A DNA stretch of 64,000 nt from NCBI RefSeq assembly GCF_901827155.1, contig NZ_LR594660.1, positions 496,001 through 560,000 of the forward strand. Direction: 5' to 3'. The DNA comes from Variovorax sp. PBL-H6 (lineage in GTDB: Bacteria > Pseudomonadota > Gammaproteobacteria > Burkholderiales > Burkholderiaceae_C). Within the stretch, counting starts at the first letter, position 1. Each line of letters opens with the position of its first letter. The position numbers and the translations under genes were made by a program. Positions 40,748 to 61,615 of the stretch are shown here, piece by piece. The notes below the pieces were generated by a model, which saw only the letters and a program-made list of their open reading frames with translations, searched no databases and was not told where the DNA came from.

Positions 40748-43700
40748 GGGGTCGATTTGTTTTCGTTGTCAAAAGTGACGGTAGGAGATCGAGCACTGGC
40801 GTAGGGGTGGCCTGCCAAGCCATTGATTTCATTGGGTTTCCTGTTGATTTTTTTGATCGCCGTTTGAGGGCGCAAAAGCGTGCTCGGTTTCAACCGCCGG
40901 TCCCGGTTTTCGGCGTGGTCTGTGACGGCAGGATTTCACTGGCATAACGCTCCACTGGAAAGCGGAATACGCCCCTCAAATTGATACCTTGCAGCCGCGT
41001 CGGCGCAATTTTCCCCGTGAGCTCCGCCGGGATGACCTGACGCCGGTTGGCCCAGCGGTCCAGAACGGCCTGCATCTGGGTTGTGTTCCAGGCCATGATG
41101 ATGTTGGCCAACAGACTCAAGGCGTCAGCCACCGCCTGCATTTCCTCGGCCCGCTTGGCCTGAGCCGGGCTCACTCTGCCGGTATAAATCGCCCGCTTCA
41201 AGGCATTGACCGCCTCACCCCGGTTGAGTACCCGACGCAGCTCATTCCTGAAGGCGTCTTTGACAAAGTAGTCGGCCAGGAACGCAGTTCGCAGCAAGCG
41301 CCCCAACTGAACACCCGCTTCGTAGATGGGGTCTCCCCGCGCCGCCGATCCAAATCTGGCCAGCGCTGCAACTGCGCTGGCGTTGCCGCTCATCACCGAG
41401 GCTGCCAAATGGACCAAGGTGTCCCAGTGCTTCTCAATCAAAGCGGTATCGACGGTAGCCTCGCAAACTGCTGCGATCTCCGGTGGAATGATCGTGCCAC
41501 GCGGCACGTACAGATGACGCTGCTTCAATTCCTTCAGTCGTGGGCATAGATCGAACCCCAGTAGCCGGGCCAACGCCATGGCAAAGTCGGTGTAGCCGTG
41601 GGTGTCCACCGCCAACTGGCTGGTCTCGATGGATTCTTGGCGCACGACACCCTCAATGGCGACCCCTGCCTGGCGCTCATTGAGCACAAAAGGCTGCGCG
41701 TAGAAGATCCCCCATCGGTCACGCACATGGGAGTAGATGCCAATCGAGGACGTGTTGCGTCTTGGATCCTGTCGGGCCTGCCACACCCGTTGGGTGGTTT
41801 CCATGCTCATCATGTCGGACGACGCCAGGTCCGTGCGACCCCATGTCGCTGCAATGGGGTGCCGTTGCATGAACTCCAGCACCGCGTGGCAGGCTTGACT
41901 CAAGCGACGCTCGTCCCCGGCCCAACGCATGGCCTGACGGATGCTGGTGGCAGACAACTGCGGAATCATACGGGCGCATTCGGCCGCCGTCAGACTGGTG
42001 CCGTGGGCCATGATGCCGGCGTAGACCATCAGCAGCTCTTCTGTCGAACGTGGCTCGCGGCCAAGCATGATCCAGCTGAAACGTACCTGAGCGTCAACGG
42101 CCAGGATCACTTCTGGGAGTTGCACCTCACCGATCCTCAGGTCAAGTTTGGCCCTCAACTTAATCACCTCTGGATCTTCATCCTCTGCCGGCAATACTGA
42201 AAGGTGGAGTTCTTCGTCCACGCGCAGCACACCGCTGCGCGCGGCGACGGCCACTGCCTCCACGCCGGCGCGTACCTTGGCCAGCAACGGCTTCAAAAGT
42301 GTGGATGCATTGGCTGGCAGTGACAGTCGGGCATAGTGCCGTTTGGCTTCTTCCTGCCAGCGCGCATCAGTGAAGAACAGGCGTGCGCGGCCACGAAAGC
42401 TCAGGCTGTGCTCAATCCACACCGAACCGTTGCGCACGGCACGTCGCAATGAAAACAGGGTGGCCACCTCCAAGGCCCGAAACGCGCGCTCCCGGTCGGC
42501 ACCCGCAATCGCGCCGCTCCAGACCGAACCCAAGCGAGGGGCGCTGACATCAGCAGGTAGTTCGCGAAGTTTGCCCGCGTACAGTTTCGTCAATTGGGCC
42601 AAGGCTGTGGTCACCGGGTGCTCGCTATTGGCCTGCCAGGGCAGCTTGGTGATTTCGGCCAGCAAAGAGCGCACGGGACGTATGGCGTCAAACAAACGCT
42701 CACGCACCACCGAGGCCCGGCTGGGTGGTTTGCCTTGCTGGCTGGCACTGAGCAGGGCAACAATTCGAGCCCGCAACTCCGCGTCTTGAAGTTCACCCTG
42801 GGCGACCAAACCAGCCAGCTCTGCCAGCAATGTCTTGTACAGGTCAGCCCAATTGACCGTCTCCGTGACACCTGCTGCGACCGTGCGCCAAAGATCGGCA
42901 ACGCGCCGCTGAACCATCAAGATAGCTTGGTCTGTGCTGGTAAACAGGCAGTGCCGTAAAAAGCAGCCAACCTCCACTGTGCGAGCGGGTTCTTTGATCC
43001 TGGCCCCCACCGAGGGAGGCCTTGAAGCCAGGCGGCGTGCATAGCGCCGCACAATGAGACCGGACAGGTCGTCCAGGTGTTTGTGGACATTCAGGGCGTA
43101 CAGCAGTTCGATTCGCTCGAACACCTCGCCAATTTGTTTGGTTGAGTGTTTGGCCGGTGCCGACCACAACCAGCTCTGCTGGGTTTGCCCATCCGGGCGC
43201 AATGCGGCCATGGCATCCCGCCAGCGCACCAGTTGTTCGGGCAGCACAGATGCCGCAATCGTTTTGGCTGTTTCTTCTTCGAGTTGTCCCAGCGCCGCTG
43301 TGACCAGGACACGGATGTCACGGTCGCGCAGGATCAGGATCTTGCTTTGATACAACCAGCGCCGAGCGAATACGAGCAATTGATCCCGATCGGCGCAGCG
43401 GGCCACCTCATCGCGCAGGGTGCGTACCAGGGCGCGACGTTGGTGCTCCGTCATCCAATGAAACCCCAGGACATCACAGGCCAGTTGTTGATGGTCAAAG
43501 AGGGTTCGACCGCGAACATACAGGGCTCGCAGGGATGCCAGTTCAACAGCAGTGATGCCGATTTCGTCACCCAGATGGCGCCACAGGGTTGTCGGAACGA
43601 TGCGCACCGAATTCAGCAGGCGCCCGCTCAAGCGCAAGAAACCTATGTGCAGTGCCAGACCCAGCTTGTGGGCGTTGCTTCGGCGGGCGTTGATGAGCTC

Positions 43701-43947
43701 GCGCTCAGTACGGCTGTACGTGAAAAACGACTGAAGCTCGAAGGTGCTGATTTCCCTTGGCAGCTCTCGCAGGCCAAGGTAGGTTGTGTGCCAGCTTTGC
43801 ATCTTGTGTCTCCGGTGATTGGGGCAGACACAATACGCCTGAAAAAGTGAACAGGAAAACCAATGAAATCAAGGGCTTATCAGACCACCCCTACGCCAGT
43901 GCTCGATCTCCTACCGTCACTTTTGACAACGAAAACAAATCGACCCC
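40748..43947 (-). mobile_element. IS1071-like Tn3-family element, 3.2 kb, complete
   Basis: Both ends start GGGGTCGATTTGTTTTCGTT and stay highly similar for about 100 bp, a long terminal repeat like that of IS1071. Total length 3,200 bp equals the IS1071 size, and it has a transposase gene only. The protein is clearly diverged from the IS1071 transposases in this window. No 5-bp target duplication flanks it (TCCAC left, CTTGC right). Confidence 0.88.
40890..43802 (-). CDS. tnpA: Transposase of the IS1071-like element
   Basis: 970-residue Tn3-family transposase that begins MQSWHTTYLGLRELPREIST and ends near RGVFRFPVERYASEILPSQ, so it shows the full length that the IS1071 copy at 7672 has lost. 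It shares long blocks with that copy (for example [28 protein letters not shown]) with many scattered substitutions. The DDE core ([20 protein letters not shown]) is present and there is no resolvase gene. Nothing interrupts it. Confidence 0.92.
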   Translation of the reverse strand: MQSWHTTYLGLRELPREISTFELQSFFTYSRTERELINARRSNAHKLGLALHIGFLRLSGRLLNSVRIVPTTLWRHLGDEIGITAVELASLRALYVRGRTLFDHQQLACDVLGFHWMTEHQRRALVRTLRDEVARCADRDQLLVFARRWLYQSKILILRDRDIRVLVTAALGQLEEETAKTIAASVLPEQLVRWRDAMAALRPDGQTQQSWLWSAPAKHSTKQIGEVFERIELLYALNVHKHLDDLSGLIVRRYARRLASRPPSVGARIKEPARTVEVGCFLRHCLFTSTDQAILMVQRRVADLWRTVAAGVTETVNWADLYKTLLAELAGLVAQGELQDAELRARIVALLSASQQGKPPSRASVVRERLFDAIRPVRSLLAEITKLPWQANSEHPVTTALAQLTKLYAGKLRELPADVSAPRLGSVWSGAIAGADRERAFRALEVATLFSLRRAVRNGSVWIEHSLSFRGRARLFFTDARWQEEAKRHYARLSLPANASTLLKPLLAKVRAGVEAVAVAARSGVLRVDEELHLSVLPAEDEDPEVIKLRAKLDLRIGEVQLPEVILAVDAQVRFSWIMLGREPRSTEELLMVYAGIMAHGTSLTAAECARMIPQLSATSIRQAMRWAGDERRLSQACHAVLEFMQRHPIAATWGRTDLASSDMMSMETTQRVWQARQDPRRNTSSIGIYSHVRDRWGIFYAQPFVLNERQAGVAIEGVVRQESIETSQLAVDTHGYTDFAMALARLLGFDLCPRLKELKQRHLYVPRGTIIPPEIAAVCEATVDTALIEKHWDTLVHLAASVMSGNASAVAALARFGSAARGDPIYEAGVQLGRLLRTAFLADYFVKDAFRNELRRVLNRGEAVNALKRAIYTGRVSPAQAKRAEEMQAVADALSLLANIIMAWNTTQMQAVLDRWANRRQVIPAELTGKIAPTRLQGINLRGVFRFPVERYASEILPSQTTPKTGTGG

Positions 43948-44344
43948 CTTGCGCGGCGCCTGTGTCGGCCATGTCCAGATGCTGCATCAACTCGTCGTCG
44001 ATGGAGCTGGCAACACGAGCGGCTTGCAGCGGCGTGAGCTTGGGCGCGACGGCCTGCACATAGGCCTGGCCGTGAGCAGCCCAGACGAGGCCGGCGCTGG
44101 CATAGACGACGCCGCTGGAGCGCGCGCCAACGAAGCCCTTCTGATGGTGGTCGAAGCGACCGTTCACCGGGTCCCAGATTCCGCCGACGTCGACCGCAAA
44201 CTGCGCGCGCCGAATGAATTCAGGGTTGCGGGTGCGAACGAGGGTGGCCGCAGGGAAGAGCTTGGCCAGCACAGCGCAGGCTGCCACGTCGTCGGCGTGG
44301 AAAGAACCCGAATGGGTCGCGATAACAGGGTTTTGTTTCTTCAT
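43948..44344 (-). pseudogene. MYG1-family metal-dependent hydrolase, 3' part lost
   Basis: The ATG at 44344 opens MKKQNPVIATHSGSFHADDV, the conserved metal-binding start of MYG1 proteins (THSGxFHxDD), followed by DVGGIWDPVNGRFDHHQKGF with the DHH motif. MYG1 relatives are DHH-type phosphoesterases or RNA exonucleases. The frame stops being native at 43947, where the IS1071-like element begins, so about the last 60 percent is missing. The open frame extends 79 codons upstream of 44344, but that part is not family-like. Confidence 0.78.
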
Positions 44345-45820: not shown

Positions 45821-46070
45821 CTAAAACAGCGCCTTGAACGACTGCCACTTGATGGTGGCTTGGCACCAGGTATAGGAGCTGCCGTTGGCGCGGCAGTTCT
45901 TAAACCCGTTCTCGGTGTACGCATCGCCCAGGTACCAGAGGCCCCCGACGAGGGCCATAACGACGAGGGCCACCAAAGGGCGGCCAGCTGCACCAGGTCC
46001 AGGAGTTTTCGGGACATGCTCCACAACCAACGCACTTGAGTGCAATCATTCGTCCGTCTTTCGTGGTCAT
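45821..46070 (-). pseudogene. Small zinc-ribbon/membrane protein coupled to the WYL regulator, apparently frameshifted
   Basis: An ATG at 46070 overlaps the regulator's stop codon (ATGA) and opens MTTKDGRMIALKCVGCGACP, a zinc-ribbon-like start. Near 46018 the protein-like sequence moves to another frame (PKTPGPGAAGRPLVALVVMA then LVGGLWYLGDAYTENG), which holds one membrane helix and ends at 45821. Removing one G at CCCGAAAA would join both parts into an ~83-residue protein. Either this is a true frameshift, a sequence error, or the second part starts by itself at 46045. Confidence 0.4.
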
Positions 46071-46990
46071 CACGCCCCGCCCTCCTCCGCGGGCGCCGCC
46101 GGCAGGAACTTCATCACCGCGGCACGGTTTCTCAGCACGATTTGCTGCACATGCGGCTCTGAGGCATCCACCTCCAGCAGCCCGAGTCGCTTGAGTGAAT
46201 AGAAGAGAAGTGCCTGGCGACATTCCAGAACGACCTCTCCGTCGACCATCCCGTAGTCGAGCTCGATGACCTTGCGATGGGCCTTCGAGAGACGTGAGTT
46301 CGGCGCCAGCACCAGGCTGACCTGACGGTGCCAAGCCTCGTCGTCTGCGCCGTCGGTGCCGGCGTCCTCGAGTACCTCCACGCCGAGCATCCGCGCCATC
46401 ACGAAATCACGAAAGTCGCCGCGTGTGTGGCAGAACGCACGGACGTGCCACCGGTAGCCGTCGAAGGCGACCGCATGCGGAGAGATGATTCGCGCTTTGG
46501 GTTCGGCCGAGGACATCGATTGGTAGGTCACGCGCAAGCAGACACGCTGCCGTATCGCGGTCAGCACGGCCACGACGGTGTTCGCCTCCAGCTTTCTCGT
46601 GGGCGCGGCAACGGCGGCCGTCGGCGGCGTCCAGCCCAGGAAGCTCTGCTCTGCAGGCAGCACCCCGATTTCGCGCGCGAGGAGCTCGTTCAGGTATCGC
46701 GAGGGTTCGTTCGAGGGGTAGAGCGGCTCGAACCCGTCGGTGGCCAGGTAGACCTTCGAGCTCCGGTCGTAGACCGCGTTGTTGGGAGCGAGCTCCAGGT
46801 ACTTGGAGATGTCGAGCGATGCCTGCGGCACCGAGATGCCAAAGAAATTCGTCAGGTCGCTGCGGTTGAGCCGCCCCTCCCAGCGAAGGCGGAAATCCAA
46901 GAACTCGAGGCGACGGCCCTGGCTCCAGCGGGCGGGCGCCTTTTCCCCCGCCTCGTCGGAGTCCGGGGGCAATGACGGCTGCTGCGGCAT
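46070..46990 (-). CDS. WYL-domain transcriptional regulator of the BrxR/CapW type
   Basis: 306-residue DNA-binding protein. The domain order is a winged helix-turn-helix (RRLEFLDFRLRWEGRLNRSD, LTNFFGISVPQASLDISKYL, residues ~25-75), a linker, a WYL domain (RISPHAVAFDGYRWHVRAFC-like region, then FRDFVMARM, ~150-200) and a C-terminal WCX-like dimer domain. The start pattern LEFLDFRLxWEGRLNR...FGISVPQAS is what I associate with BrxR and CapW, repressors that sit beside BREX, CBASS and other phage-defence operons. It is divergent from the nuclease-helicase genes with an 88-bp control region, so it probably represses them until a nucleic-acid or nucleotide signal binds the WYL domain. Confidence 0.8.
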   Translation of the reverse strand: MPQQPSLPPDSDEAGEKAPARWSQGRRLEFLDFRLRWEGRLNRSDLTNFFGISVPQASLDISKYLELAPNNAVYDRSSKVYLATDGFEPLYPSNEPSRYLNELLAREIGVLPAEQSFLGWTPPTAAVAAPTRKLEANTVVAVLTAIRQRVCLRVTYQSMSSAEPKARIISPHAVAFDGYRWHVRAFCHTRGDFRDFVMARMLGVEVLEDAGTDGADDEAWHRQVSLVLAPNSRLSKAHRKVIELDYGMVDGEVVLECRQALLFYSLKRLGLLEVDASEPHVQQIVLRNRAAVMKFLPAAPAEEGGA

Positions 46991-47013
46991 GTCTGGATGA
47001 TACGAAAAATCAG

Positions 47014-47042
47014 TTCTTTAGTCTTCTTTTTATACGTATAAT
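47014..47042 (+). promoter_or_regulatory. Promoter and overlapping palindromic operator of the nuclease-helicase operon
   Basis: TATAAT at 47037-47042 is a perfect -10 box, with TTCTTT at 47014-47019 as a weak -35 at 17-bp spacing. The palindrome TTATACGTATAA (47030-47041) covers the -10 box, which is the position expected for a repressor site. The ribosome site GAGGA (47068-47072) follows before the ATG at 47079. Confidence 0.65.
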
Positions 47043-47078
47043 TTTTGTACGCGATTCGCGGTGCTGTGAGGAATCCGG

Positions 47079-49706
47079 ATGCAGGTCACCTTTGGATTGA
47101 GACTTGACGAGCGCCAGGGCCCCTCGGACAGGGGGTACTTCAGGGAGCCGGTCGTCGGGCGCATGGGACTTCTTGGCCTGTTGGAGACCTACCTGGGTCT
47201 GGCTCGGCCGGAGGTGCCGCAGGCGCAGCGCGTGGCGGCGTACCTCGGTCACCTGCGCAAGTTCGACGACGGCAGCCGCTTCTACAGCCGGTCGCTCCAG
47301 GTAGACGACGTCGGCACCGCAGCACTTCTTCTCTCATGGCGCGACGAGTGGCGCCTGGGCGGCTGGGATGGAAAGGCATCGCCCTCCTCTCCGCTGCGCA
47401 TCCAGGAACTGGCGAGCGTCGAGGAGGCTGCTTTCGGCCACGTCGCACCTGGCGAGGGTGAGCGCCTGGTGGAAGTGGCCTCTGCGCTCGCTGCAGGCAA
47501 CACGGTGCCCATTTCGCAGGTCAGGCTCGCCGACCCCTCTGCGAGCTTTCCGGCCATGTGGCGCGCTGTTCTCAATCACCTGAAGGGCGTGCACGAGCCC
47601 CAAGCCGCCGAACCTGGCGGCAAAGGGCAGCTTCGTGAGCTGCAGCGCCTCGCCGCAGAATCTGTGGCCAATGGCCAGCTGAAAGCCCCCGAGGCCTTTG
47701 CTCTCAACGATGGAACCGTCCAGGTCCTGCAAGCACAGTCGCGCGAGACCGCCGAGCACTGGCTGAGCGCTTGGTGCCGTGCCAACCCGGCGAATCGCCT
47801 GGTGCTTTGCGAGCAAGGGGGCGACTCCCTGGACGCCACCTTGATGGCAACGGGCGCCGCCGCCTGTGGCTTCGACAGCCCGAGCAGCCTGCGACCCGCG
47901 CTGCAGACGCTGGGGCTGGCGCTCGAGATGCTGTGGGCGCCGCTCCATATCGGACGCCTCGTCGAGTTCCTCGTGCATCCCTACGGGCCGTTCAGCCGAG
48001 CTGCGAGAGGCAAGCTCGCGCGTGCGATTGCCGAGCAGCCGGGTCTCGGCGGAGAGGCCTGGATTGCTGCCAAGGCGAGCATCGGCGAGAAGGAAAACGC
48101 GCAGACACTTCTGGAGGAGGTCGCCTTCTGGCTCGAGGGGGAGCGCTGGTCCCGCGCAGACGGCGCCCCCATCACCGAGGTCGCTGTCCGCGTCGAGAAG
48201 GTGCGCACGGCGTTGCAACGACGCGCCGTCCACCAAGCTGGTGAAGCTGCGACCATCGCGCCGGCACTTCGCCAGTGCGACGCCGTGCTCGTGGGCCTGG
48301 CCGAGCTGCGCCAGCAGGGCCTGGAGCACCTGGTACCGCGGCAAATCGAACAGCTGCTGGCGCAGTCCACGCCCGCCGGCGCGACCAACCCCGCTGCCGT
48401 CTCCCAGGTCGGCTGCCTGAAATCCGCGACCACCGCGGCCGCATGCCTCGAGCCTGCAGGTGAAGTCGTCTGGTGGATGCCTTCGACGCCGGCCCTTCCC
48501 CGGCCGCTTCCTTGGTCGCAAAGCGAGGTCGATGCACTCAGGAGCCTGGGGGTCGAGCTTCGTGACCCCAAGCGTGAGCTGGAGCTGCTCGCAACGCAGT
48601 GGCTGCGCCCACTTTTTGCTGCCAAGGAACGCTTCGTCCTGGTGCTGCCGCCGCCGGGTGCGGAAGAACACCCCATCTGGCAACTTATCCGGCAGTTGGC
48701 GCCGAAAGTGAAGGTGCACCGCATCGATGACGACCTGTACGGCACGCACCTGGGCTCGATTGCCCGTCGCGTCACCGATGCTCCCCTGCAGCGCGCGGGG
48801 CGCTACCTCGAGCTCGAGCGTCCCCTCGCCTCTCGCAAGAAGCACCAGTCGTACACGGCACTCAACGAGCTCTTCAACAACCCCGCCCTCGCCGTCCTGA
48901 AGGACGTGGCCCACCTGCGACCGGGGAGTGGCCTCGACGATGAGCACGAGAACAAGCTACTTGGCAACCTTGCGCATCGGGTGGTCGAGCGATTCTTCCA
49001 ACAAGAACATGTTCTGCGCTGGACCAGCGCGCAGGCCGGCGCCTGGTTCGACGCCATGGTCGACGAGCTCCTGCTCGCAGAAGGCGCACCGCTCCTGATG
49101 CAGGGCGCCGGCGTAAGCATGAGCCGGTTCAAGCGAATCTGCCGCACGGCGCTCCTCACCTTGCTCACACACCTGCAAAGCGCCGGCGCTGTTCGAGTCC
49201 AGGTGGAGGTTCCTGTCCAGGGATTGCTGGGCGACGTGGAGGTCATCGGCAAGATTGACCTGCTGGTCGACCTGCCGCAGGAGCGCAGTGTCACCCTTGA
49301 CCTCAAGTGGTCCGGCACCAAGCGGCATGGAGAGGCGCTTGTGGAAGGCCGCCACCTGCAGCTCGCGCTGTATGCAAGTCTGACGCACCAGGTTTACGGG
49401 CAGCTGCCCGTGGCCTTGGGTTACTTTGTCTTCGACTCGGCAACGCTGCTCATCTCCACGCCTGGCATCTTCCCGGATGCCCAACTGCGCAAGCCCGCGG
49501 GCGGCGTCACGGTCGACCCGATGCTGGCTCAGGCAAGGGAAAGCTGGAAGTGGCGCATGTCCCAGTGGGCGGAGGGCACCGTCGAACTGGTCGACGCCCA
49601 GGCGGACATTGCCGAATTCCAAGGGCCGGAAGGCACCTTGCCGGTCACCACGCTCGGTCCCTTCCATCGTGAACACCTCACCCTGCTCGGAGGCTGGGAA
49701 CAATGA
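47079..49706 (+). CDS. AddB-like PD-(D/E)XK nuclease subunit
   Basis: 875-residue protein of the RecB-exonuclease/AddB type. The C-terminal nuclease domain is clear: GNLAHRVVERFF (His, ~628), VIGKIDLLVD (Asp, ~726), LDLKWSG (Asp-x-Lys, ~740) and HLQLALYASL (~760). The N-terminal ~600 residues look like the degenerate helicase scaffold of AddB (start RMGLLGLLETYLGLARPEVP, then SWRDEWRLGGWDG) and carry no Walker A motif. No iron-sulphur Cys cluster is obvious. Its stop overlaps the helicase start (ATGA), so the two are translationally coupled and probably form a complex that degrades or resects DNA ends. Confidence 0.82.
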   Translation: MQVTFGLRLDERQGPSDRGYFREPVVGRMGLLGLLETYLGLARPEVPQAQRVAAYLGHLRKFDDGSRFYSRSLQVDDVGTAALLLSWRDEWRLGGWDGKASPSSPLRIQELASVEEAAFGHVAPGEGERLVEVASALAAGNTVPISQVRLADPSASFPAMWRAVLNHLKGVHEPQAAEPGGKGQLRELQRLAAESVANGQLKAPEAFALNDGTVQVLQAQSRETAEHWLSAWCRANPANRLVLCEQGGDSLDATLMATGAAACGFDSPSSLRPALQTLGLALEMLWAPLHIGRLVEFLVHPYGPFSRAARGKLARAIAEQPGLGGEAWIAAKASIGEKENAQTLLEEVAFWLEGERWSRADGAPITEVAVRVEKVRTALQRRAVHQAGEAATIAPALRQCDAVLVGLAELRQQGLEHLVPRQIEQLLAQSTPAGATNPAAVSQVGCLKSATTAAACLEPAGEVVWWMPSTPALPRPLPWSQSEVDALRSLGVELRDPKRELELLATQWLRPLFAAKERFVLVLPPPGAEEHPIWQLIRQLAPKVKVHRIDDDLYGTHLGSIARRVTDAPLQRAGRYLELERPLASRKKHQSYTALNELFNNPALAVLKDVAHLRPGSGLDDEHENKLLGNLAHRVVERFFQQEHVLRWTSAQAGAWFDAMVDELLLAEGAPLLMQGAGVSMSRFKRICRTALLTLLTHLQSAGAVRVQVEVPVQGLLGDVEVIGKIDLLVDLPQERSVTLDLKWSGTKRHGEALVEGRHLQLALYASLTHQVYGQLPVALGYFVFDSATLLISTPGIFPDAQLRKPAGGVTVDPMLAQARESWKWRMSQWAEGTVELVDAQADIAEFQGPEGTLPVTTLGPFHREHLTLLGGWEQ

Positions 49707-52700
49707 ATCCAGTTGAGTTCATCAGTGCCGGCGCAGGAAGCGGCAAGACCTACCGCCTGACGAGCATCCTGTCGGAGGCACTCCTTGGCGGCAACGAACC
49801 GGTGCGCCCCCACGCGGTGCTCGCCACGACCTTCACGGTGAAGGCAGCCACGGAGCTGCGCGAACGCGTGCGCACCAGACTGCTCGAGCATGGCCGCATG
49901 GACCTGGTCACAGCCATCGGCCAGGCGCGCATCGGGACCGTCAACAGTGTCTGTGGCCAGCTGCTCGAGCGGTTTTGCTTCGAGATGGGTCTCTCCCCCG
50001 ACCAGACGGTGCTGAGCGAGGCCCAGACCAAGAAACTTCTTGCCCGTGCGCTCGACGACACCTTCGACGCCGAGCGTCGCACGGAACTGCTGACGCTCAT
50101 GCGCCGGCTGGGGATGGAGGACGCCATGTGGTCCGACACCATCGGCAAGGTGGTCAAGGCCGCTCGCGAAAACGACATTTCCAGAGAGGCGCTTCGCGCA
50201 ATGGGCGCGACGAACGCAGACCGGATGCTCGAGAACTGGCCGGCGCCCGAGGGTGGCGTCGACCATGCCGCCAGGCTGCTGGAGGAACTCGCGACGGCCA
50301 AGACGGCGGTCGCCAAGGACATCGAGTCCCGGGACGCCGCCGGTGGCAGGGTCGACAAGGTCATGCGGGACGGCATCGAGGAGCTCGAGCGCTTGCATCG
50401 CCTCTTCAAGTCGGGCAACTGGACCTGGCCTGACTGGCTCGCCGCATGCAACGTCAAGATTGGCGCCAAGCTCGTGGGTCTCGTGCAGCCGGTCGTCGAC
50501 GCGGCGCAGGCGCACGAGCGTCACCCGCAGTTTCACGAGGAGGTGCGGCGCTACCTCGACCTTGTGTTCAGCCTGGCCACTGACACCCTGGACACCTTCA
50601 GACGTGCCAAGGAAGAACTCGGTGCGGTTGACTTCATTGACCAGGAGGTCGAACTGCTGCGGGCCTTGCGCGAGAGCGAAGCCGTGCGAGAGGCCTTGTC
50701 GAGCGAGCTCGACCTCGTTCTCGTCGACGAGTTCCAGGACACGAGCCCGCTGCAGCTCGCGCTCTTTGTCGAAATCGCCAAGCTCGCCAGGCGCTCGGTC
50801 TGGGTCGGCGACCCCAAGCAGGCCATTTACGGATTCCGCGGCACTGACGCCTCGCTCATCGCGGGGGTCATCGGCGCCGTCCAGGGCTGGGGTGGAATCA
50901 TCGGCGACCCGCTCACCGACTCCAGGCGCTCGACCCCCGCGCTGGTGTCGCTCGCGAACGCCGTGTTCGTGCCTGCGTTTGCGCCGGACCTCGAAGCCGA
51001 CGCCGTGAAGCTCGCGCCGACGCGAGGCGACATCCCCGGCCAGCCAGCGCTCTACGACTGGACCTTCGAGAGCAGGAAAGGCGAGCTCGACTATCTCGGG
51101 CTCGGCCCTGCCATCACGGAGCTCCTTGCTTCCGGAGCGAAGGTCTACGACAAGGGCACGAAGGAGCTGCGCGCCATCAGGGCGGGCGACATTGCTGTGC
51201 TGTGCCGCACGAACGACCAGATTGATTACGCCGCGGCAGCTCTCGCGCGCTGGAGCATCCCGTCGGCGAGTGGCCGCCCGGGCCTCCTGTCAACGCCCGA
51301 GGCCTTGCTGGTCACAGCGTGCCTTCGTCGCCTGCAGGACCCGACGGACACCGTGGCGACGGCGCTCATCCTCACGCTCGCGGCCGGCATGCCCGCCAAG
51401 GAGTGGCTTGGCGACCGCCTGGACCATCTTGCCGCGGAGAAGCCGTCCCATGAGTGGAGGGCCACGGGCAACAATGCGCATCCCTTGCTTGCGCGGCTGG
51501 AGACGCTTCGCCCGTCCCTGCTCTCGCTGACGCCTGCGGAAGCCCTCCGGCTGGCCAAGGCGGAGTCCCACGTGGCCATGCTGGCCAGCGCCTGGTCGCG
51601 CACACCGCAGGAAGCGCGCGTTCGTGTCGACAACGTGGAAGCGCTGCTCGCGATGGCCACGACCTACGAGAGCGAGTGCGTCTCTTCCAAGCAGCCTGCG
51701 TCGGTGGGCGGCCTCCTGCGGTGGCTGTCAACTCAAGCGGCTGGCGGCGAGGACGCCCGGGCCGCTGCCGCCGATGACGCGGTTGCCGTGCTCACGCACC
51801 ACGGTGCAAAAGGCCTCGAGTGGCCGGTTGCCATCCTGACGGGCCTGGGCGCCGGCGCGCGCACCGCGGTCTGGGATGTCCGTGCGCGCACCAATGCCGA
51901 GAAGCTCGACCCGCAGGAGCCCTTGCGCGACCGCTTCATCCACTGCTGGCCGAGAACTTTCGGCAAACGCAAGGCTCCGCAAGCGGCGCTCAACGCCGAG
52001 AACTCCCAAATCGGCCAGGCGATGGCCAAAGCCGGCCTGGAGGAAAACAAGCGCCTCCTCTATGTGAGCATGACACGCGCTCGAGACGCGCTCGTCCTGG
52101 TTTCAGCCATGAAGACCAGGCCCGACCGCTCCTGGGTCGACGAGGTCGGCGCCTCAGAACTACTTTTTGGTGAAAGCGGCGTGATGGTGCTGCCCGACGG
52201 TCGTCATGTGCAGCGCGAGACCAAGCTTTGGTCCGCCGCCGACTGCGCCGCGGAGCCACCGGCGGCCACTGCCGCTGACCGCAGTTGGTTCAGCCCTGCC
52301 GCGCCGCTTGCCAGCCGTCCGCTGTGGCACCGGCCCAGCACCGGCGAAGGCGCCGAGGCGAGCGTCTTCGCCGTCGGTGAGGTCGAGGCTGTCGGCACCC
52401 GCATTGCCATCTCGAAGAGCGTCGACATGGTTCTCCTTGGAACGGCCTTGCACCATTGTATCGCCCGCTCTGGCGTGGCCGGAAGCATCTCGGGCGAGGA
52501 CGTCGAGCGGCTCTTGACGCGCTGGGATGTTGCGCACGCTGTCGACACGGGCGCCGTGGTCGGCCAGGTCGACTCCTTCCTCGCCTGGATTGCCAAGCGC
52601 TGGCCCGGTTGCCCGGTTCACGTGGAGGTGCCCATCGAGGTCGACCGTGAGGACGGCACGCGGCTGCGCGGGCGCATCGACTTCCTCGTTGACACACCAG

Positions 52701-52909
52701 CCGGATGGGTCCTCATCGACCACAAGTCCAACCCGCGCGGTGCGACTCACGATGAGGAGCTCGTGCGCGAGCACGGGCCTCAGCTCGCCTCGTACGCGGA
52801 TGCGCTGGTCCGCGCGACTGGACGGCCGGTTACCGAACAGTGGCTCTTCTTGCCGGTAGCCGCTCGGGCGCTGCGCGTTCGAGCTCTCCCTAGCCTTGAG
52901 GTTGCTTGA
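49703..52909 (+). CDS. AddA-like UvrD/RecB-family helicase-nuclease
   Basis: 1068-residue SF1A helicase. Walker A is GAGSGKTYRLTS at residues 8-16, motif II VDEFQDTSPLQLALF near 340, motif III region GDPKQAIYGFRGTDASL near 370, then THHGAKGLEWPVAIL near 697 and NKRLLYVSMTRARDALVL near 782. A C-terminal RecB nuclease domain follows: GTALHHCIAR (~915), LRGRIDFLVD (~990), LIDHKSN (~1005), QLASYADAL (~1030). This is the AddA domain order. With the upstream AddB-like protein it gives a two-nuclease helicase as in AddAB. Regulation by a BrxR/CapW-type repressor is unlike housekeeping AddAB or RecBCD. Confidence 0.88.
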   Translation: MNPVEFISAGAGSGKTYRLTSILSEALLGGNEPVRPHAVLATTFTVKAATELRERVRTRLLEHGRMDLVTAIGQARIGTVNSVCGQLLERFCFEMGLSPDQTVLSEAQTKKLLARALDDTFDAERRTELLTLMRRLGMEDAMWSDTIGKVVKAARENDISREALRAMGATNADRMLENWPAPEGGVDHAARLLEELATAKTAVAKDIESRDAAGGRVDKVMRDGIEELERLHRLFKSGNWTWPDWLAACNVKIGAKLVGLVQPVVDAAQAHERHPQFHEEVRRYLDLVFSLATDTLDTFRRAKEELGAVDFIDQEVELLRALRESEAVREALSSELDLVLVDEFQDTSPLQLALFVEIAKLARRSVWVGDPKQAIYGFRGTDASLIAGVIGAVQGWGGIIGDPLTDSRRSTPALVSLANAVFVPAFAPDLEADAVKLAPTRGDIPGQPALYDWTFESRKGELDYLGLGPAITELLASGAKVYDKGTKELRAIRAGDIAVLCRTNDQIDYAAAALARWSIPSASGRPGLLSTPEALLVTACLRRLQDPTDTVATALILTLAAGMPAKEWLGDRLDHLAAEKPSHEWRATGNNAHPLLARLETLRPSLLSLTPAEALRLAKAESHVAMLASAWSRTPQEARVRVDNVEALLAMATTYESECVSSKQPASVGGLLRWLSTQAAGGEDARAAAADDAVAVLTHHGAKGLEWPVAILTGLGAGARTAVWDVRARTNAEKLDPQEPLRDRFIHCWPRTFGKRKAPQAALNAENSQIGQAMAKAGLEENKRLLYVSMTRARDALVLVSAMKTRPDRSWVDEVGASELLFGESGVMVLPDGRHVQRETKLWSAADCAAEPPAATAADRSWFSPAAPLASRPLWHRPSTGEGAEASVFAVGEVEAVGTRIAISKSVDMVLLGTALHHCIARSGVAGSISGEDVERLLTRWDVAHAVDTGAVVGQVDSFLAWIAKRWPGCPVHVEVPIEVDREDGTRLRGRIDFLVDTPAGWVLIDHKSNPRGATHDEELVREHGPQLASYADALVRATGRPVTEQWLFLPVAARALRVRALPSLEVA

Positions 52910-52948: not shown

Positions 52949-53593
52949 ATGTCCTTTGATGAATCTGACCGCGCAGAGAATGCGGCCGCGTCCACATTGT
53001 TCTTTGCTGAAGCCGACGAGCATGAAGGCTTGGAGCTGAAGGTCGGGTATTTGGAGTTCCTATGGATGCAGCCAGGAGCCGCCGCCGAGGCAGACAAGCT
53101 CCGAACCCTGATGAGCGACTATCCCCGTGAGGAAGTTGAACGAGCCATCTGCCTGGTACTCGACGCGGGTGGGTGGAGGCCTCACTTGGTGGCATGTGTG
53201 GCGCTCCTGTGCGGGCACACGACGCCCAAGACGCTCTGGTACTTGTGGCGGGCAATTCAAGCTGACAGTTGGGTTGCTCCGCAGCTTGTCGCGACTGCAT
53301 CGTTGGTGGACCCTGAGTTTGCGAACAAGGCCGAATGGGCTCTGCTTTCAACACGCCTGCAGCCCAAGGCCGCAGGAGCCCTCGGCGCCATGCTGGCTGA
53401 GCGACTGGGCCCGGAAGATGAACTGCCGGAGGACCTCGAGCAGGCCGTTCAGCGAGGCAGTGCTCATCCTGACGACGCCGCCGGAATCGCACAGACTTGG
53501 AAGCAGTCTGTACTGCGGGCCTTCAACGGAGCGGATGGACCTGCACAAGTGAGCGGCCTGGACTGTGCTCGCCGCCTCCCGGCCTCGCATTGA
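52949..53593 (+). CDS. Hypothetical protein behind the helicase gene
   Basis: 214 residues from the ATG at 52949, 39 bp behind the helicase stop in the same direction, so it may be the third gene of the operon. I recognise no family. The predicted secondary structure is helical with repeated short helices (DKLRTLMSDYPREEVERAIC, HLVACVALLCGHTTPKTLWY, PQLVATASLVDPEFANKAEW), which suggests a HEAT-like or DUF6931-like helical bundle. There are no obvious catalytic motifs and no membrane segment. Confidence 0.6.
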   Translation: MSFDESDRAENAAASTLFFAEADEHEGLELKVGYLEFLWMQPGAAAEADKLRTLMSDYPREEVERAICLVLDAGGWRPHLVACVALLCGHTTPKTLWYLWRAIQADSWVAPQLVATASLVDPEFANKAEWALLSTRLQPKAAGALGAMLAERLGPEDELPEDLEQAVQRGSAHPDDAAGIAQTWKQSVLRAFNGADGPAQVSGLDCARRLPASH

Positions 53594-53927
53594 AGACCGT
53601 CCGCCACGCAGGCGCTTATCGAGGCGACAGCGGCTGTTCGCCCTCGCCGCTGCTTCGTTTGCGCCATCGTGGAGCTCGACATGCTCCACGAGTGGGCCAG
53701 AATTCTGAGAGCGCGGATGGTCATGTACTCAGCTTGCTTCGGTGACTACTTCATCTCGCTTCCAATTCTTGGCTGGGAACGGCGACTCTGATGTGGCGAA
53801 AGCCGCGGCGTCCTTTGCACGCTTGAAGCCGTTGTGCCGTTAGGTTGCCAACAGCATCGTGCGGCCAGAACGATAATGAGCACTCTCGTGCTGCAACAAT
53901 TCAAACAGGAACTGAGGAGAGCGTGAA
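53594..53927. other. 334-bp region without a recognisable gene
   Basis: No open frame with a ribosome site is found on either strand. The last 20 bp contain GAGGAGAG, the ribosome site of the next gene. I see no clear terminator hairpin. Confidence 0.6.
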
Positions 53928-54581
53928 ATGGGACAACTACTAGGCTGGCTGACGATTGCGTTGCCCCTGTCTATCGCGGTCGGCATCTGGGCATCGACCC
54001 GCGGCCGAAGCGGTTGGGGATGGTTCTTCCTATGCCTGCTCATCAGCCCCTTGATTGCAGGGATTATTCTCGCAGTCTCGAAGAATCTTGCCACAGGGGA
54101 ATCGACTCCGGCACCTGGTGCTGGCCGCACCTCAGCGCATTCCTCGTCGGGCGCCATGAATGCCGCTGCGCTGTTCGACGCATCAACCAAGTCCTCCTCC
54201 GCTCCCGCACATGTGGGGCCAACAGATGACGATTTCGCCGCAGCGATGGCCGAGTGCGATTCAGCGCAGCGAAAGCCCGGGGTCTGGGCAAAAGCTTTTA
54301 CAGAAGCTCTGGGCGATGAAGTTCGCTCCAGAGCGCTCTATACCGGCCGCCGCGCTGGCGAGTTGGCTGCAGAGCGAATCGAGCGAGAGAGGGTAGAGCA
54401 GTTGAAGACAGAAGAAGGTCGACTTCGTCTCGAGCGTGAGGCCTACGAGGCGAAGCCCAAGGGCACGTGCCCGAATTGCGATACCGTCGTGCTCCTTGAC
54501 GCAGAAAGCTGCCCGAGCCAGCGCTGTGGTGCCACGTTCACCGCTCCTGGTGGGTGGCGCGTCAAGCCACTGCCGGCGTAA
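53928..54581 (+). CDS. Membrane protein with C-terminal zinc ribbon
   Basis: 217 residues behind GAGGAGAGCGTGAA. Two N-terminal helices (LLGWLTIALPLSIAVGIWAS and GWFFLCLLISPLIAGIILAV) are followed by a low-complexity linker, a charged coiled-coil (ERIERERVEQLKTEEGRLRL) and a C-terminal zinc-ribbon motif CPNC-x11-CPSQRC. The layout suggests a membrane-anchored adaptor. The function is unknown. Confidence 0.65.
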   Translation: MGQLLGWLTIALPLSIAVGIWASTRGRSGWGWFFLCLLISPLIAGIILAVSKNLATGESTPAPGAGRTSAHSSSGAMNAAALFDASTKSSSAPAHVGPTDDDFAAAMAECDSAQRKPGVWAKAFTEALGDEVRSRALYTGRRAGELAAERIERERVEQLKTEEGRLRLEREAYEAKPKGTCPNCDTVVLLDAESCPSQRCGATFTAPGGWRVKPLPA

Positions 54582-54606
54582 ACACGACATCGCGCACCTC
54601 GCTCCG

Positions 54607-55434
54607 TCACATGGCCTGGATGAAGCGGGTGAGATACCACCCGAGGTAAGGCTCATGCAGGTCCAATGCCGCTCCAACGGTGTCACGGAACCACGCGCAC
54701 ACCTCAGTCGGTTCGCCACCTTCAATGTCCGCGGAAACGCGTGCGTGCAGCCCTAGCGGCATGCGCGCGATGCGGGACTTGACTGCAACGGCATAGGCGC
54801 TCTCGGCCGCCTTGGCCTGCGTCGGGTTGAGCGGCTTGACGTCGGGATAGCCATCAAGCTCGGCCAGCGCTGCCGCCTGGTACATACCGAGAACGGCCTC
54901 GAACTTCTCTGTCGGCAAGCTCGCCATGTACCGGCGCTCATAGACGGCGGACTGCTGGGTGCCCATTTTCCCGAGGAAGAGCGCCTTGCACACGGTAGGC
55001 TGAGTGGCCGCAGCCATGTCGAGGATGTATCGCAGGAATTGCGCATGGACCTCGGTCGGCAGGCGGCGCAGCCCCTTCACCTGCAGTTCGACCACGGCCT
55101 CGAGCACGTAGTTCTTGCTTTCATCCGCGCCGAGCTGCTTGCCGTAGAACGGCATCACCACCCTGGTCAGATATGGCGCCATCCGTTCGTGCAGCATGAC
55201 TCTTCGCAACATGGCCTTGACTGCCTCGCGCTTCGGCGGCGCCAGGTTCGGCCCGTACGAGTTGGTCACTGTCTTCTCGAGCAGAGTCTCGTCACTGACG
55301 TAGCGCTGCATCCACCGCGAAATCTCGGCCTGCAGTCGAGCTGGCGTTGGCTGCTGGGCGGCTGCCGCGAACGACACCGCCGCGAGCAGCGCAATGCTCA
55401 GGCGGCGCAGCCTTGGAAAGAACATGTTTTCCAT
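54607..55434 (-). CDS. Exported hypothetical protein
   Basis: 275 residues with a signal peptide (RRLSIALLAAVSFAAAAQQ). The mature part is helical (ISRWMQRYVSDETLLEKTVT, VKAMLRRVMLHERMAPYLTR) and resembles DUF2059-like periplasmic proteins only loosely. It is 25 bp behind the multidomain gene at 55460 in the same direction, so the two are likely co-transcribed. Confidence 0.6.
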   Translation of the reverse strand: MENMFFPRLRRLSIALLAAVSFAAAAQQPTPARLQAEISRWMQRYVSDETLLEKTVTNSYGPNLAPPKREAVKAMLRRVMLHERMAPYLTRVVMPFYGKQLGADESKNYVLEAVVELQVKGLRRLPTEVHAQFLRYILDMAAATQPTVCKALFLGKMGTQQSAVYERRYMASLPTEKFEAVLGMYQAAALAELDGYPDVKPLNPTQAKAAESAYAVAVKSRIARMPLGLHARVSADIEGGEPTEVCAWFRDTVGAALDLHEPYLGWYLTRFIQAM

Positions 55435-55459
55435 CGAAGGACTCGCTTCCTTTGTTCAA

Positions 55460-57580
55460 CTATTGAGGTCCGCGCCGCGCCAGGAGCAGGAACTCAACCC
55501 CTTGCGCTCGCGCTGATTGCATGTCGAAATGGGCCAAGCTCGCTTGGCCAAGCAGCGAGGCGCAATCGACGCACGCGATTGCTGGCACGTTCTTGAGTTC
55601 GAAGGGCCCGACCTTCATCGACTCGATGACGATGCCTCGTGCCAGCACTACTCTGCCGTCGGCTGTCCGCATCTTCACCTGCGGCTCGGTCACCCGGTAG
55701 ACGACCTTCGTGTCACGCAGCATCGCGTCGCTCAGGCTCGTCCGGCTGGCGCCGGTGTCGACCATGAAAGCCCGCGGCTTGCTCGAGCCCAGGGTCACTG
55801 GCGCGAAGAAGTGACCACTGAAGGCCGGCAACCGCAGCGCCGCGCGCTCCAAGGTCTTCTCTGGTTCGGCCTGGTCGATAGCCGTCTCAATGGAAATCCG
55901 TTGCGCCACGAAGTACGGCCGGACGCCCTTTGCTTCCAACTGGTTGTCGTAGGCCTGCAGGAGAGACAGCGCCTCGTAGGGCCGCTTCGATTTGAGCAGG
56001 AGGCTGGCTAAGCGCCCTCTGACGTCGACCAGGCTCGGTGCCACGGACAGCGCCTTGTACGACCATTCGATGGCGTCGCCCGTGTGGCCCAGCTTCTCGT
56101 GGCTGTCGGCGTAGAACGCGAAGAGGTCGTACGCACCCTCCCCGAGGTCCAACGACCTCCTGAGGTGAACGATGGCTTCCTCGTGCTTGTCACGCAAGTT
56201 CAGGACCATGCCCAGGCGCGCGGCGCCGAAGGCGTCGTCGGGTCGAAGCCGTACGTACTCGCGCCAGCTGGCTTCCTGGCATCGCAGGTCGCGCAGCTGC
56301 ACACATTTGATTGCCTGAGAACGGTGGTCCTCCGCCGTCAACTGGTCCCGATTGAGCCAACGCTCCACGTAGCCGCGTGTCATGAGCGTGGTCGCGCCCG
56401 AGGTTGCGAGCAGCACCGTGCAGCATCCGACGAAGACCTTCAGGTTCTTGCGCTGGCTGGGGTAGTCGCTCCAGAGCGAGAAAATGACGACGACCGCGAC
56501 TGGCAGCAGCAGCGTGCCAAGGCCGACTCCGAGCGCATAGGCCAGCGACGCCCTCTCAGGCAGATGGAAGGCCAGGCCGAACGCGACCAGCACCACGGCC
56601 AAGATGATTGCTGCGGTCCACAGCGGCGCGCCGGCGGCGCGTTCGCGTAACCTAGCTTGCCTGAGGAATCCAGGCTCAGCGTCCGCGGCCGGCGCAGCCC
56701 GGCCCTTGGCCAGCTCCGGGATGTGCTGCATGGGTTTCCAGCTCAGGCGCCCTTCGCGCCAAACCAGCGTGGTCATGCTGATGGTGCCCGCCTGCACAAG
56801 CTCCTCGAGCTGCACTGCCGACAGCGGACCGCTCCTGTTTTCGCCTTCTGCGTACCACCAGACCTGCTCGGCTGCGTCTGCTGCGGGCGTGTCGGTCTGC
56901 TCCGGCGTCGGCAACGCAGCCAACGGGGCCTCGGCGAACACAGGGTCTCGACGGTCTTCGAGCGCTTTCCGGCCACGTGCTCGCATGCGCAGAGACTCGA
57001 GCGGCTCAAGGTCCCCGGCCTGCTTGGCACCAAAGTAGGTGTTCTTTACTCGCTCCGAGTTCGTGAAGTACAGAAACCAGAGGAAGCTTGAAATGAAGCC
57101 GCGAACCGTTTGAGCAGCGCCCTCCCCCGCGGCGTTCACGTTGAGGAACGCCCAGGCAGCGCCCACATCGCCGAGGTACATGACGAACGGACTTAGGGCA
57201 AGAAAGAGCTTGGCGTGGGTCACGCTCTCCGGCTCGTACCTCGTGCGAAGCCGGTTGGCCATCCAGACCTGCCAGACAATCATGCCCAGCATCAGGCACC
57301 AGCAGAAAGCCTTGTATTGCACATAGCTTGGAAGCTCCACGAGCGCGGGGTTGCGCGCCTCCGCCTCGGTGAAGTTCCTGAATTGCGTGCCAATACCTAT
57401 CAGCGGCGAAAGGACGAATGAAGCGACAAGAAAGAAGCCGAGCCAGCCTCTCGTTCCGTGGAGCCTCTCTCCGCGAGCCTCCCTTTGGCGTGCCGACCGA
57501 CGTACCAGCCACACGCAACCGGCAATCAGCGCGAGGAATATCAACAGCGGCAGCAGCGAGCCAGCCTGCTCCATGGTCAT
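55460..57580 (-). CDS. Multidomain membrane protein: DUF2569, GYF_2, TPR and retropepsin-like protease
   Basis: 706 residues in a rare order. The N-terminus has four membrane helices with the DUF2569 pattern (GWLGFFLVASFVLSPLIGIG ... AWAFLNVNA). A GYF_2 (DUF4339) module follows near 240-290 (VWWYAEGENRSGPLSAVQLE, LVWREGRLSWKPMQHIPEL). Two more membrane helices come next (WTAAIILAVVLVAFGLAF, LLLPVAVVVIFSLW). TPR-like repeats cover ~430-560 (EASWREYVRLRPDDAFGAAR). The C-terminal aspartyl protease domain has VDTGASRTSLSDAM. It could be a membrane protease with a ligand-binding module. The role is unknown. Confidence 0.75.
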   Translation of the reverse strand: MTMEQAGSLLPLLIFLALIAGCVWLVRRSARQREARGERLHGTRGWLGFFLVASFVLSPLIGIGTQFRNFTEAEARNPALVELPSYVQYKAFCWCLMLGMIVWQVWMANRLRTRYEPESVTHAKLFLALSPFVMYLGDVGAAWAFLNVNAAGEGAAQTVRGFISSFLWFLYFTNSERVKNTYFGAKQAGDLEPLESLRMRARGRKALEDRRDPVFAEAPLAALPTPEQTDTPAADAAEQVWWYAEGENRSGPLSAVQLEELVQAGTISMTTLVWREGRLSWKPMQHIPELAKGRAAPAADAEPGFLRQARLRERAAGAPLWTAAIILAVVLVAFGLAFHLPERASLAYALGVGLGTLLLPVAVVVIFSLWSDYPSQRKNLKVFVGCCTVLLATSGATTLMTRGYVERWLNRDQLTAEDHRSQAIKCVQLRDLRCQEASWREYVRLRPDDAFGAARLGMVLNLRDKHEEAIVHLRRSLDLGEGAYDLFAFYADSHEKLGHTGDAIEWSYKALSVAPSLVDVRGRLASLLLKSKRPYEALSLLQAYDNQLEAKGVRPYFVAQRISIETAIDQAEPEKTLERAALRLPAFSGHFFAPVTLGSSKPRAFMVDTGASRTSLSDAMLRDTKVVYRVTEPQVKMRTADGRVVLARGIVIESMKVGPFELKNVPAIACVDCASLLGQASLAHFDMQSARAQGVEFLLLARRGPQ

Positions 57581-57646
57581 ATTCGCTCCTCAGTCTTTCA
57601 GTGTTTTTGTGAGTAGGGCCCGTTCGGCGCTAGAGCGTCCGGGGCA

Positions 57647-58693
57647 TCAACGTTGGTTGTCGAGTCGCAGTCTTTCCACAAATCGCGCGGCGTACCTCCG
57701 CAGCGTGTCGATGGAATCGTTCTGGGAGGCAGCAGTGACCATGGCCACGCGCCCGTTTAGATTGACTAGCTCGGTATAGGTGGTTGCGCCATTTGGAGTT
57801 CGCAGACTGGCGCATACTCGGTCTTGGTCATCGCAACTCAGCCGAGACCCAGGCATTTCGCCGATGAATCGCTTCTTTACATCGGCAAACTGGGCTGGCC
57901 GCACAGGTATCGGCCCATAGCGCGTGTCGTCCAGAACGAGCACGAACTGAACCGGACCCGAGGACCCGAAGTTTGCACTCTGAGGAACGAAGGCACCGAC
58001 GAAGAAGTTCGAGTTGACTGCCGGTCCAAGATTCTTGTCGGTCGCCGGGTCGACGTTCCATGGCTTCCAGCCAGTGGGCAGTGTCAAGAGCAGCGAACTT
58101 GTCGGCATGCGCCCCACTCGCAGCGGGTTTTCGCCGCGGGGCCGGCACTCCGTTCCCTTCGTCGTCCCTGACGAGACTCGGATTGACACCGACTTCAACG
58201 AAACCGGCTGCTTTCCCGTTGGGCTCGCCTGAGCAGAAGCCGGGAGTTGGCGCTCAAACAGAAGCCATTCGTCTTCGATACGATAGTTCAGCTCAGAGGC
58301 TGGACCTTTCGGCTGACCGGTTACTGGGTCGAGGGTTGTCACCCGCAACTGCCCTGGCCCGGATGGCACATAGCTCGACAGAGTCTCCGTCTTTCCGTTA
58401 CTGCCGTGGCACGTCGACCGAGCCCGACTACCGTCGTACTCAATGACACAGTCGCCGTTCTGCTCGCGGTGCGTTCCGTCAGCCAGGGTGACTCGAACCT
58501 GCTGACTACGCCAGCAGCCGCGTAAAGCGATGTCTTCGGAAGCGGCCACTGCTGCGCCGGCGCTGGACAACAGGACGAGTGCCGCCAGGGCGGGAACAAT
58601 CAAACACATCGCGCCACGACTTTCACGTCGCCAGCATGCGGCCAGAGGAAAACGCGCTGGCGGGCACCAGAATGAGCCTTGTCGCGACATCAT
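57647..58693 (-). CDS. Exported hypothetical protein
   Basis: 348 residues from the ATG at 58693, which overlaps the stop of the upstream membrane gene. A better signal peptide starts at a later ATG (58609): MCLIVPALAALVLLSSAGAA then VAASE. The mature part starts with an extracytoplasmic domain with paired Cys (RGCWRSQQVRVTL, GDCVIEYDGS, STCHGSNG). The C-terminal half ends VNLNGRVAMVTAASQNDSID. No family is recognised. Confidence 0.6.
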   Translation of the reverse strand: MMSRQGSFWCPPARFPLAACWRRESRGAMCLIVPALAALVLLSSAGAAVAASEDIALRGCWRSQQVRVTLADGTHREQNGDCVIEYDGSRARSTCHGSNGKTETLSSYVPSGPGQLRVTTLDPVTGQPKGPASELNYRIEDEWLLFERQLPASAQASPTGKQPVSLKSVSIRVSSGTTKGTECRPRGENPLRVGRMPTSSLLLTLPTGWKPWNVDPATDKNLGPAVNSNFFVGAFVPQSANFGSSGPVQFVLVLDDTRYGPIPVRPAQFADVKKRFIGEMPGSRLSCDDQDRVCASLRTPNGATTYTELVNLNGRVAMVTAASQNDSIDTLRRYAARFVERLRLDNQR

Positions 58694-59082
58694 TCCGCCG
58701 CCGCGAAGCTCGTGTGCGCAGCCGACTCGCCCGCTACCGCTCGGTTCTTGGATGACATCAGCGCGAGGATGTTGAGCAGGCACGGTGTCGCCATCACCGC
58801 GATGAAGACGGCGATGAACAGGCTCTCCCGGGCCTTAAGCGACCACAGGACGAAAGCGACAGCCGCGGCCAGTCCTGCCAGCCACAGCCCATTGAGCGCC
58901 AGCGCTCCTACAACGGCAACGCGCGAGGAGTCTGGCCGGAAGGCAATCAGCGCTGCGCCGAAGGGCAGCAGATGAATCACCATGACCCATGGAGAGGCCT
59001 GCGGGTAGCGGGCCATGGCAAGCGCGCCGACTCCGAAGCAGGCAACACCAATCCAATCGAGCACCTTCGCCCAAGTCTGCAT
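58690..59082 (-). CDS. Small multi-helix membrane protein
   Basis: 130 residues from the ATG at 59082, chosen because TTGGAGGAAATCGCG lies just upstream; the frame is open for 74 further codons without membrane character. It has four predicted helices (VLDWIGVACFGVGALAM, WVMVIHLLPFGAALIAF, VVGALALNGLWLAGLAAA, SLFIAVFIAVMATPCLLNIL). The function is unknown. It is upstream of and coupled to the exported protein gene. Confidence 0.65.
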   Translation of the reverse strand: MQTWAKVLDWIGVACFGVGALAMARYPQASPWVMVIHLLPFGAALIAFRPDSSRVAVVGALALNGLWLAGLAAAVAFVLWSLKARESLFIAVFIAVMATPCLLNILALMSSKNRAVAGESAAHTSFAAAE

Positions 59083-59289
59083 CGCGATTTCCTCCAACCC
59101 GGCGCGTGACCGGTAGTCCCCGGCACGTGCCTTAGCCCTCGACTCCTGAAGCGCCTCCCGTAGGGAGTACCGCCGTTCCATTCTTTTGAGCGCACTCGCC
59201 ACCGGCAGTGGGTACTTTTGTGCTAACCTTATGTTACCAGCAGTAACTCGTCTGCGCAACATGCGCCCCTCACTTCGGCAAGCCAGCTC

Positions 59290-59787: not shown

Positions 59788-59805
59788 GCACCACGGGAGA
59801 GCCGG

Positions 59806-61560: not shown

Positions 61561-61615
61561 GAACGCTCCTCCTGCTTGTTTCATTGATTCTTGAAGACCA
61601 AAAGCCCTCGACGGG

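Follow-up and report, generated by a model that had tools for sequence, protein, structure and literature searches.

RecBCD and AddAB are repair machines and also among the first obstacles that linear phage DNA meets, and inhibitors of them are found in phages. In the AddB protein of Bacillus subtilis, Fe-S cysteines lie around the nuclease and form a 4Fe-4S site. In the two-gene Gabija system the nuclease GajA, an OLD-like ATPase/TOPRIM protein, is accompanied by the UvrD-like helicase GajB. Gabija is described as acting on linear DNA ends and where phages exclude RecBCD (PMC12407980). Among the papers listed in the searches, the closest described system is the predicted UvrD-Cas4 fusion of Hudaiberdiev 2017 (PMC5704561), in which a UvrD helicase is joined to a pfam12705 nuclease and which occurs in defence contexts, in some cases with WYL and HTH regulators; as far as that paper describes it, this is a single fusion protein whose neighbours are type III RM or Dcm. 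The operators of CapW proteins are palindromes that lie over -10 sites (PMC9122588); CapW-type control is reported to answer DNA damage, and single-stranded DNA is named as a CapW ligand in a title cited there (PMC13373217). In the locus described here a UvrD helicase is likewise fused to a pfam12705 nuclease and its relatives often lie in a defence context, but it always comes together with a second, AddB-like subunit. It resembles Gabija in being a two-gene nuclease and UvrD-like helicase pair; however, a GajA-type partner is absent and both subunits are AddAB-like with PD-(D/E)XK sites. Its regulator resembles the BrxR/CapW repressors in full-length homology, divergent orientation and a palindrome over the -10 site, but stands before a nuclease-helicase pair and not before BREX or CBASS.

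Layout and setting of the locus

The window, that is the whole stretch of 64,000 nucleotides which was analysed, comprises bases 496001-560000 of an 839-kb plasmid contig (a megaplasmid) of Variovorax sp. PBL-H6, whose chromosome is separate (5.99 Mb). Over its last 36,922 bp, the stretch compared, the window does not differ from plasmid 2 of Variovorax sp. SRS16, a strain originating from linuron-contaminated soil. The sequence-only reading of this DNA had listed a WYL gene, an 88-bp gap, an AddB-like gene, an AddA-like gene and an ATGA junction, and mechanical ORF calls together with the sequence recovered every one of them at the same position (Table 1). The ATGA overlap likely couples the translation of the AddB-like and AddA-like genes. 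The AddB-like gene is single-copy in the host genome.

Table 1. Features of the CapW-AddB-AddA locus (positions within the window)
Feature	Position	Strand	Basis
CapW/BrxR-family wHTH-WYL repressor, 306 aa	46070..46990	-	WYL domain; 7tb6 match
Divergent control region, 88 bp	46991..47078	.	sequence
TTATACGTATAA, 12-bp perfect palindrome, candidate CapW operator	47030..47041	.	shuffle test and JS1663 counterpart
TATAAT, candidate -10 box of the AddB-AddA operon	47037..47042	+	by eye
AddB-like protein, 875 aa: helicase-like N-terminal part, C-terminal PD-(D/E)XK nuclease (residues 591-800)	47079..49706	+	
PD-(D/E)XK nuclease domain of the AddB-like protein	48849..49478	+	PF12705, residues 591-800
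ATGA start-stop overlap, AddB-like/AddA-like	49703..49706	+	ORF calls
AddA-like protein, 1068 aa: UvrD/SF1A helicase and C-terminal PD-(D/E)XK nuclease	49703..52909	+	Pfam; kept residues
PD-(D/E)XK nuclease domain of the AddA-like protein	52433..52879	+	PF12705, residues 911-1059

On the left of the locus a Tn3-family transposase gene (window 40890-43802) abuts a short MYG1-family gene (43880-44344), which is perhaps a remnant. On the right, window 52949-63310 holds a run of genes mostly without family matches, three of them having GYF, SHOCT and DMP19 domains. The neighbouring small genes had been taken to add to an island character, and this did not hold: none of the 11 window neighbours tested matched PADLOC (4 searched at E<=0.1 and 7 at E<=1e-5), and by this measure the window itself is not a recognisable defence island.

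Architecture of the AddB-like and AddA-like proteins

The AddB-like protein carries a PDDEXK_1 domain (Pfam, E=1.3e-17) and, by a sequence pattern check, has no Walker A pattern. Because its sequence profile gave no meaningful match against the PDB, it was compared by structure; AddB was the best structural match, and an inactivated helicase fold followed by a C-terminal PD-(D/E)XK nuclease, as in the AddB class, was found. The AddA-like protein has the SF1A motor, Walker A and C-terminal PD-(D/E)XK domain of the AddA class (Pfam UvrD-helicase N-domain E=1.7e-42; PDDEXK_1 E=1.4e-11). Its residues K15, T16, D342, Q345, H917, D1006, K1008, Q1027 and Y1031 are kept in 38/38 relatives, and the motif residues of the AddB-like protein are identical in 42/42; intact nuclease sites are equally expected of a repair enzyme. 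Compared with B. subtilis AddAB (3u44), the fold and domain order are alike, but identity is 12% and the AddB-like protein has no cysteine after the nuclease motif; its cysteines lie at positions 233-688 only, and C688 is kept in 24 of 42 relatives. Unlike AddAB, moreover, the pair is mobile and patchy and its relatives are found among defence genes.

PADLOC-DB 2.0.0 (2023) contained no dedicated model for the pair. The AddB-like protein matched DruK only (E=1e-8), and for the AddA-like protein the best 25 of 51 matches were GajB and RTasHel models, those of GajB matching its helicase core. None of the seven window proteins searched in PADLOC matched GajA, the partner here being a PDDEXK_1 protein with an AddB fold. 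A description of the pair was not found among the papers listed from the open literature searched; it may already be catalogued elsewhere, for example in DefenseFinder.

The pair is distinct from the AddAB of the host

The chromosome encodes its own AddAB as one fused AddB-AddA ORF of 1981 aa (L051 6445-12390, minus strand, G000:C1), whose N-terminal half matches AddB models and whose C-terminal half matches AddA models, and which lies near a rho-like ORF recognised by eye. The plasmid pair is thus separate from the host enzyme. There is practically no chance that it is the ordinary housekeeping AddAB of the host; it shares the fold and domain order of AddAB, but the chromosome has its own copy, the pair occurs in only 5/101 genomes of the genus, and it stays far under the NCBIfam AddA/RecB cut-offs, reaching as an AddA equivalog 162.4 of 860.75 and 157.7 of 707.65 bits (TIGR02784/02785), a level which the host's own fused AddAB also misses at 323.9 bits. 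The chromosomal copy and the distribution led us to reject the housekeeping reading, and with it the possibility that the pair is the only, universally present AddAB of its host. RecBCD identity was likewise rejected, the genome having no RecC match at E<=0.001. In the alphaproteobacterial family f207, where several matches were found, a housekeeping role was rejected too, the pair being present in 11/74 genomes and in 4/36 good ones.

Distribution and pairing of relatives

Homologues of the AddB-like protein number at least 236. Searches gave 34 loci in genome contigs and 25 plasmid records, 17 of the latter typed conjugative. The hosts of the pair are beta-, gamma- and alphaproteobacteria. 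Its presence is patchy: it was found in 5/101 genomes of the genus, 8/399 of the family, 1/369 of the class and 14/398 of the phylum, counts which each include the own genome and are lower bounds, few candidates having been scored per genome. In the AddB tree, built by a quick method and with long branches flagged, Pseudomonas is interleaved with Achromobacter, Alcaligenes and Pseudohongiella.

For the pairing count, loci with less than 85% of AddB in one ORF were dropped (including L036 and L047-L050) and near-copies were collapsed, leaving 42 groups. AddA follows AddB in 38/38 groups having at least 1.5 kb downstream, and since this holds throughout for a family of that size, the pair is far from chance. 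The AddB/AddA junction measures -181 to +3 nt in all 46 locus records (not deduplicated), and AddA is present in 10/10 further plasmid loci. At two plasmid loci (L150 and L157) AddA appears as two ORFs; these are an Agrobacterium vitis plasmid, with AddA split, and a Bradyrhizobium plasmid, with both genes split. On a Sinorhizobium fredii plasmid (L156) AddA begins 2.7 kb past the end of the AddB match, with something in between.

A phage-borne system was also considered and rejected. The matches bearing on it were a single IMG/VR contig, in which 616 residues aligned at 30%, and a single record that carries the label Bacteriophage sp. (L144, MT835507.1). The latter resembles a bacterial defence island: ORFs of type I RM-like and Zorya-like character were identified there by eye from the starts of the ORFs, and it also contains a WYL regulator together with AddB-AddA.

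The CapW regulator and its candidate operator

The WYL protein contains a WYL domain (Pfam, E=1.4e-15) and its residues 17-294 align with residues 6-285 of Stenotrophomonas maltophilia CapW (7tb6, E=1.2e-80); the match to BrxR 7t8k gave E=9.3e-45. Winged helix-turn-helix, WYL domain and C-terminal region are thus all present over the full length, and the protein is of the BrxR/CapW type, as had been proposed.

This regulator is for the most part not conserved beside the pair. A divergent CapW gene within 1.5 kb was found in 4/37 unique loci (the plasmid of the window, its close relative WDL1, Variovorax JS1663 and a Sinorhizobium terangae plasmid), two of which represent one plasmid lineage; the same layout was seen in 2/10 further plasmid loci, those of S. 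meliloti and S. mexicanum. At three other loci CapW lies farther off, at 2.8 kb (L091), 7.5 kb on the same strand (L023) and 5.1 kb (L044). CapW relatives occur in 28/399 genomes of the family sample, three of which also have AddB, on the same contig each time. On the AddB tree CapW stands beside the pair in three separate branches, its adjacency requiring at least 3 changes, which may be gains or losses; 500 shuffles averaged 3.9 changes, and 34 of them were as low. In 4/42 groups (L019, L026, L037 and L043) the same strand encodes, 0.7-1.1 kb upstream, a second kind of WYL protein, which we take to be YafY-like. The WYL-AddB-AddA trio had been put up for testing as a conserved unit, and we rejected this: as AddA follows AddB in every group counted and CapW adjoins so few loci, the conserved unit is the AddB-AddA duo, and CapW is one of several optional regulators of it.

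In the 88-bp gap, the palindrome overlaps the candidate -10 box, giving, at sequence level and with a -10 chosen by eye, a candidate operator in the place where BrxR/CapW repressors have theirs. When the gap was shuffled by mononucleotides, 1.6% of the shuffles contained a perfect palindrome of 12 bp or more. At the corresponding position Variovorax JS1663 (L025) has TTATGCGCATAA, both half-sites being different and the symmetry retained. The -35 of the candidate AddB-AddA promoter is weak, and a consensus sigma-70 scan found no full site. At 33 CapW genes, each scanned over the 160 nt before the gene and its first 20 nt, 5 sites lay within 2 mismatches of the site in the window (0.19 expected) and 15 within 3 (2.1 expected), where the shuffles keep base composition only, the window's own site is counted, three rows are identical, and one of the 5 close sites (L133) overlaps its start codon region. 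Among 35 CapW upstream stretches, two loci being counted twice, a perfect palindrome of at least 10 bp at 50-70 nt before the gene was seen in the window and JS1663 only; the other stretches showed enrichment of a degenerate motif only. A TTGACA promoter is visible on the S. mexicanum, S. terangae and S. meliloti plasmids; in the first two its likely -10 coincides in part with inverted repeats, and in S. meliloti no such overlapping repeat was found. No palindrome was found in the gap of L091.

Defence genes around the relatives

We compared 15 regions around relatives with 15 regions from the same genomes, four test genomes having no control region. The test set omits L096 and L109, which belong to the plasmid lineage of the window, the AddB and AddA genes and the CapW gene of L083, and retains other WYL genes. 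At E<=1e-20, 132 PADLOC families were matched among 123 ORFs, a figure which counts models and not ORFs or loci and is partly redundant, as many are alternative models of one protein. In the controls, 1 family was matched among 80 ORFs and 2 among 77, in total 2 models (mad3 in 4 ORFs and a GlgB-type model in 2) among 157 of 177 ORFs, 14 of the 20 omitted being all of region L100. Defence-gene matches were many near relatives and almost absent from the control regions, which supports the defence reading; neighbour ORFs were called mechanically and controls were unmatched for mobile-element content, so that genomic islands as such may account for some of the enrichment. Among the matches listed were Wadjet JetA/C/D, Druantia III DruE3, DrmD/DpdE, LeoA/BC, a type I methylase and WYL proteins, and a Pfam search of the test set gave McrBC (3), GmrSD_N (2), HipA_C (2), Fic (2) and N6_Mtase. 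The annotation of some plasmid relatives places a CBASS cyclase and AbiEii, multiubiquitin/ThiF genes or N-6 DNA methylases in their vicinity; in the 5-kb flanks of others no such genes were seen.

In Variovorax JS1663 (L083) four ORFs of 475, 223, 1232 and 381 aa adjoin CapW-AddB-AddA in a Wadjet-like arrangement; the first of the four is JetA, and the JetC and JetD models match one test ORF each. In five Pseudomonas loci (L018, L021, L024, L027 and L045) one gene family, of up to 403 aa, comes after AddA and is possibly a third component; the copy in L045 has a PLD-like match under the Pfam cut-off.

Discussion

The sequence-only reading was supported by the CapW identity, the AddAB-like architecture, the separateness from the host AddAB, the patchy occurrence and the defence-rich flanks of relatives; the conserved trio and the defence island in the window did not hold. 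The explanation that we consider probable is that a horizontally moving AddAB-type pair degrades linear invader DNA and constitutes a two-gene anti-phage/anti-plasmid system, silenced here by CapW until infection or damage. A CapW dimer bound to TTATACGTATAA over the -10 region would repress both divergent promoters, as suggested by the palindrome, its symmetric conservation and the published CapW operators. Infection or DNA damage would raise the CapW ligand, reportedly single-stranded DNA, and, to judge from the family, release CapW. The AddB-like and AddA-like proteins would then be made in coupled fashion and assemble into a heterodimer resembling AddAB, in which a single UvrD-type motor is combined with two nuclease domains. 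The architecture and fold of these proteins, the conservation of their motif residues and their strict pairing are evident; their complex formation and activity we infer. The complex would load on free double-stranded DNA ends and unwind and degrade linear invader DNA. Its great divergence from the host AddAB may let it escape phage inhibitors of the host enzyme, and a divergent second AddAB could serve once such inhibitors disable the first. In most relatives the same pair would work without an adjacent CapW.

The same enzyme could, as an unlikely alternative, be a mobile, damage-inducible spare repair AddAB, switched by CapW, that supplies a second end-resection activity for breaks in plasmid or host DNA. 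An AddAB fold in which the motifs of motor and nuclease are intact would suit such a role, as would its location on this plasmid and on rhizobial and largely conjugative plasmids, and control said to answer DNA damage (PMC13373217) could serve repair equally. A chromosomal AddAB is, however, already present in the host, relatives have many restriction, Wadjet, Druantia, DISARM-type and CBASS genes at their sides, and patchiness with host-jumping is typical of defence. It is rather improbable that the pair serves an adjacent defence system as its accessory nuclease-helicase module, as proposed for UvrD-Cas4 fusions: neighbours do vary between loci, the JS1663 pair adjoins its four-gene Wadjet-like operon, the gene behind AddA in five Pseudomonas loci belongs to a family with a weak PLD-like match, and L091 has two more genes before AddB, behind a CapW; but apart from AddA, partner genes recur in at most 6 of the 37 loci compared, and no known system was found beside the pair among the 11 window neighbours searched against PADLOC.

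Within the preferred reading of a stand-alone two-gene defence system, we entertain with considerable doubt a self-reinforcing form triggered by single-stranded DNA, which would free CapW so that the second AddAB unwinds DNA and yields more of it, its strong divergence from the host enzyme allowing it to degrade invaders whose anti-RecBCD/AddAB proteins have disabled the latter. If the defence reading is true, the housekeeping AddAB machine would have been recruited as a stand-alone immune effector, and a bacterial answer to anti-RecBCD proteins would become testable by means of a two-gene cassette.
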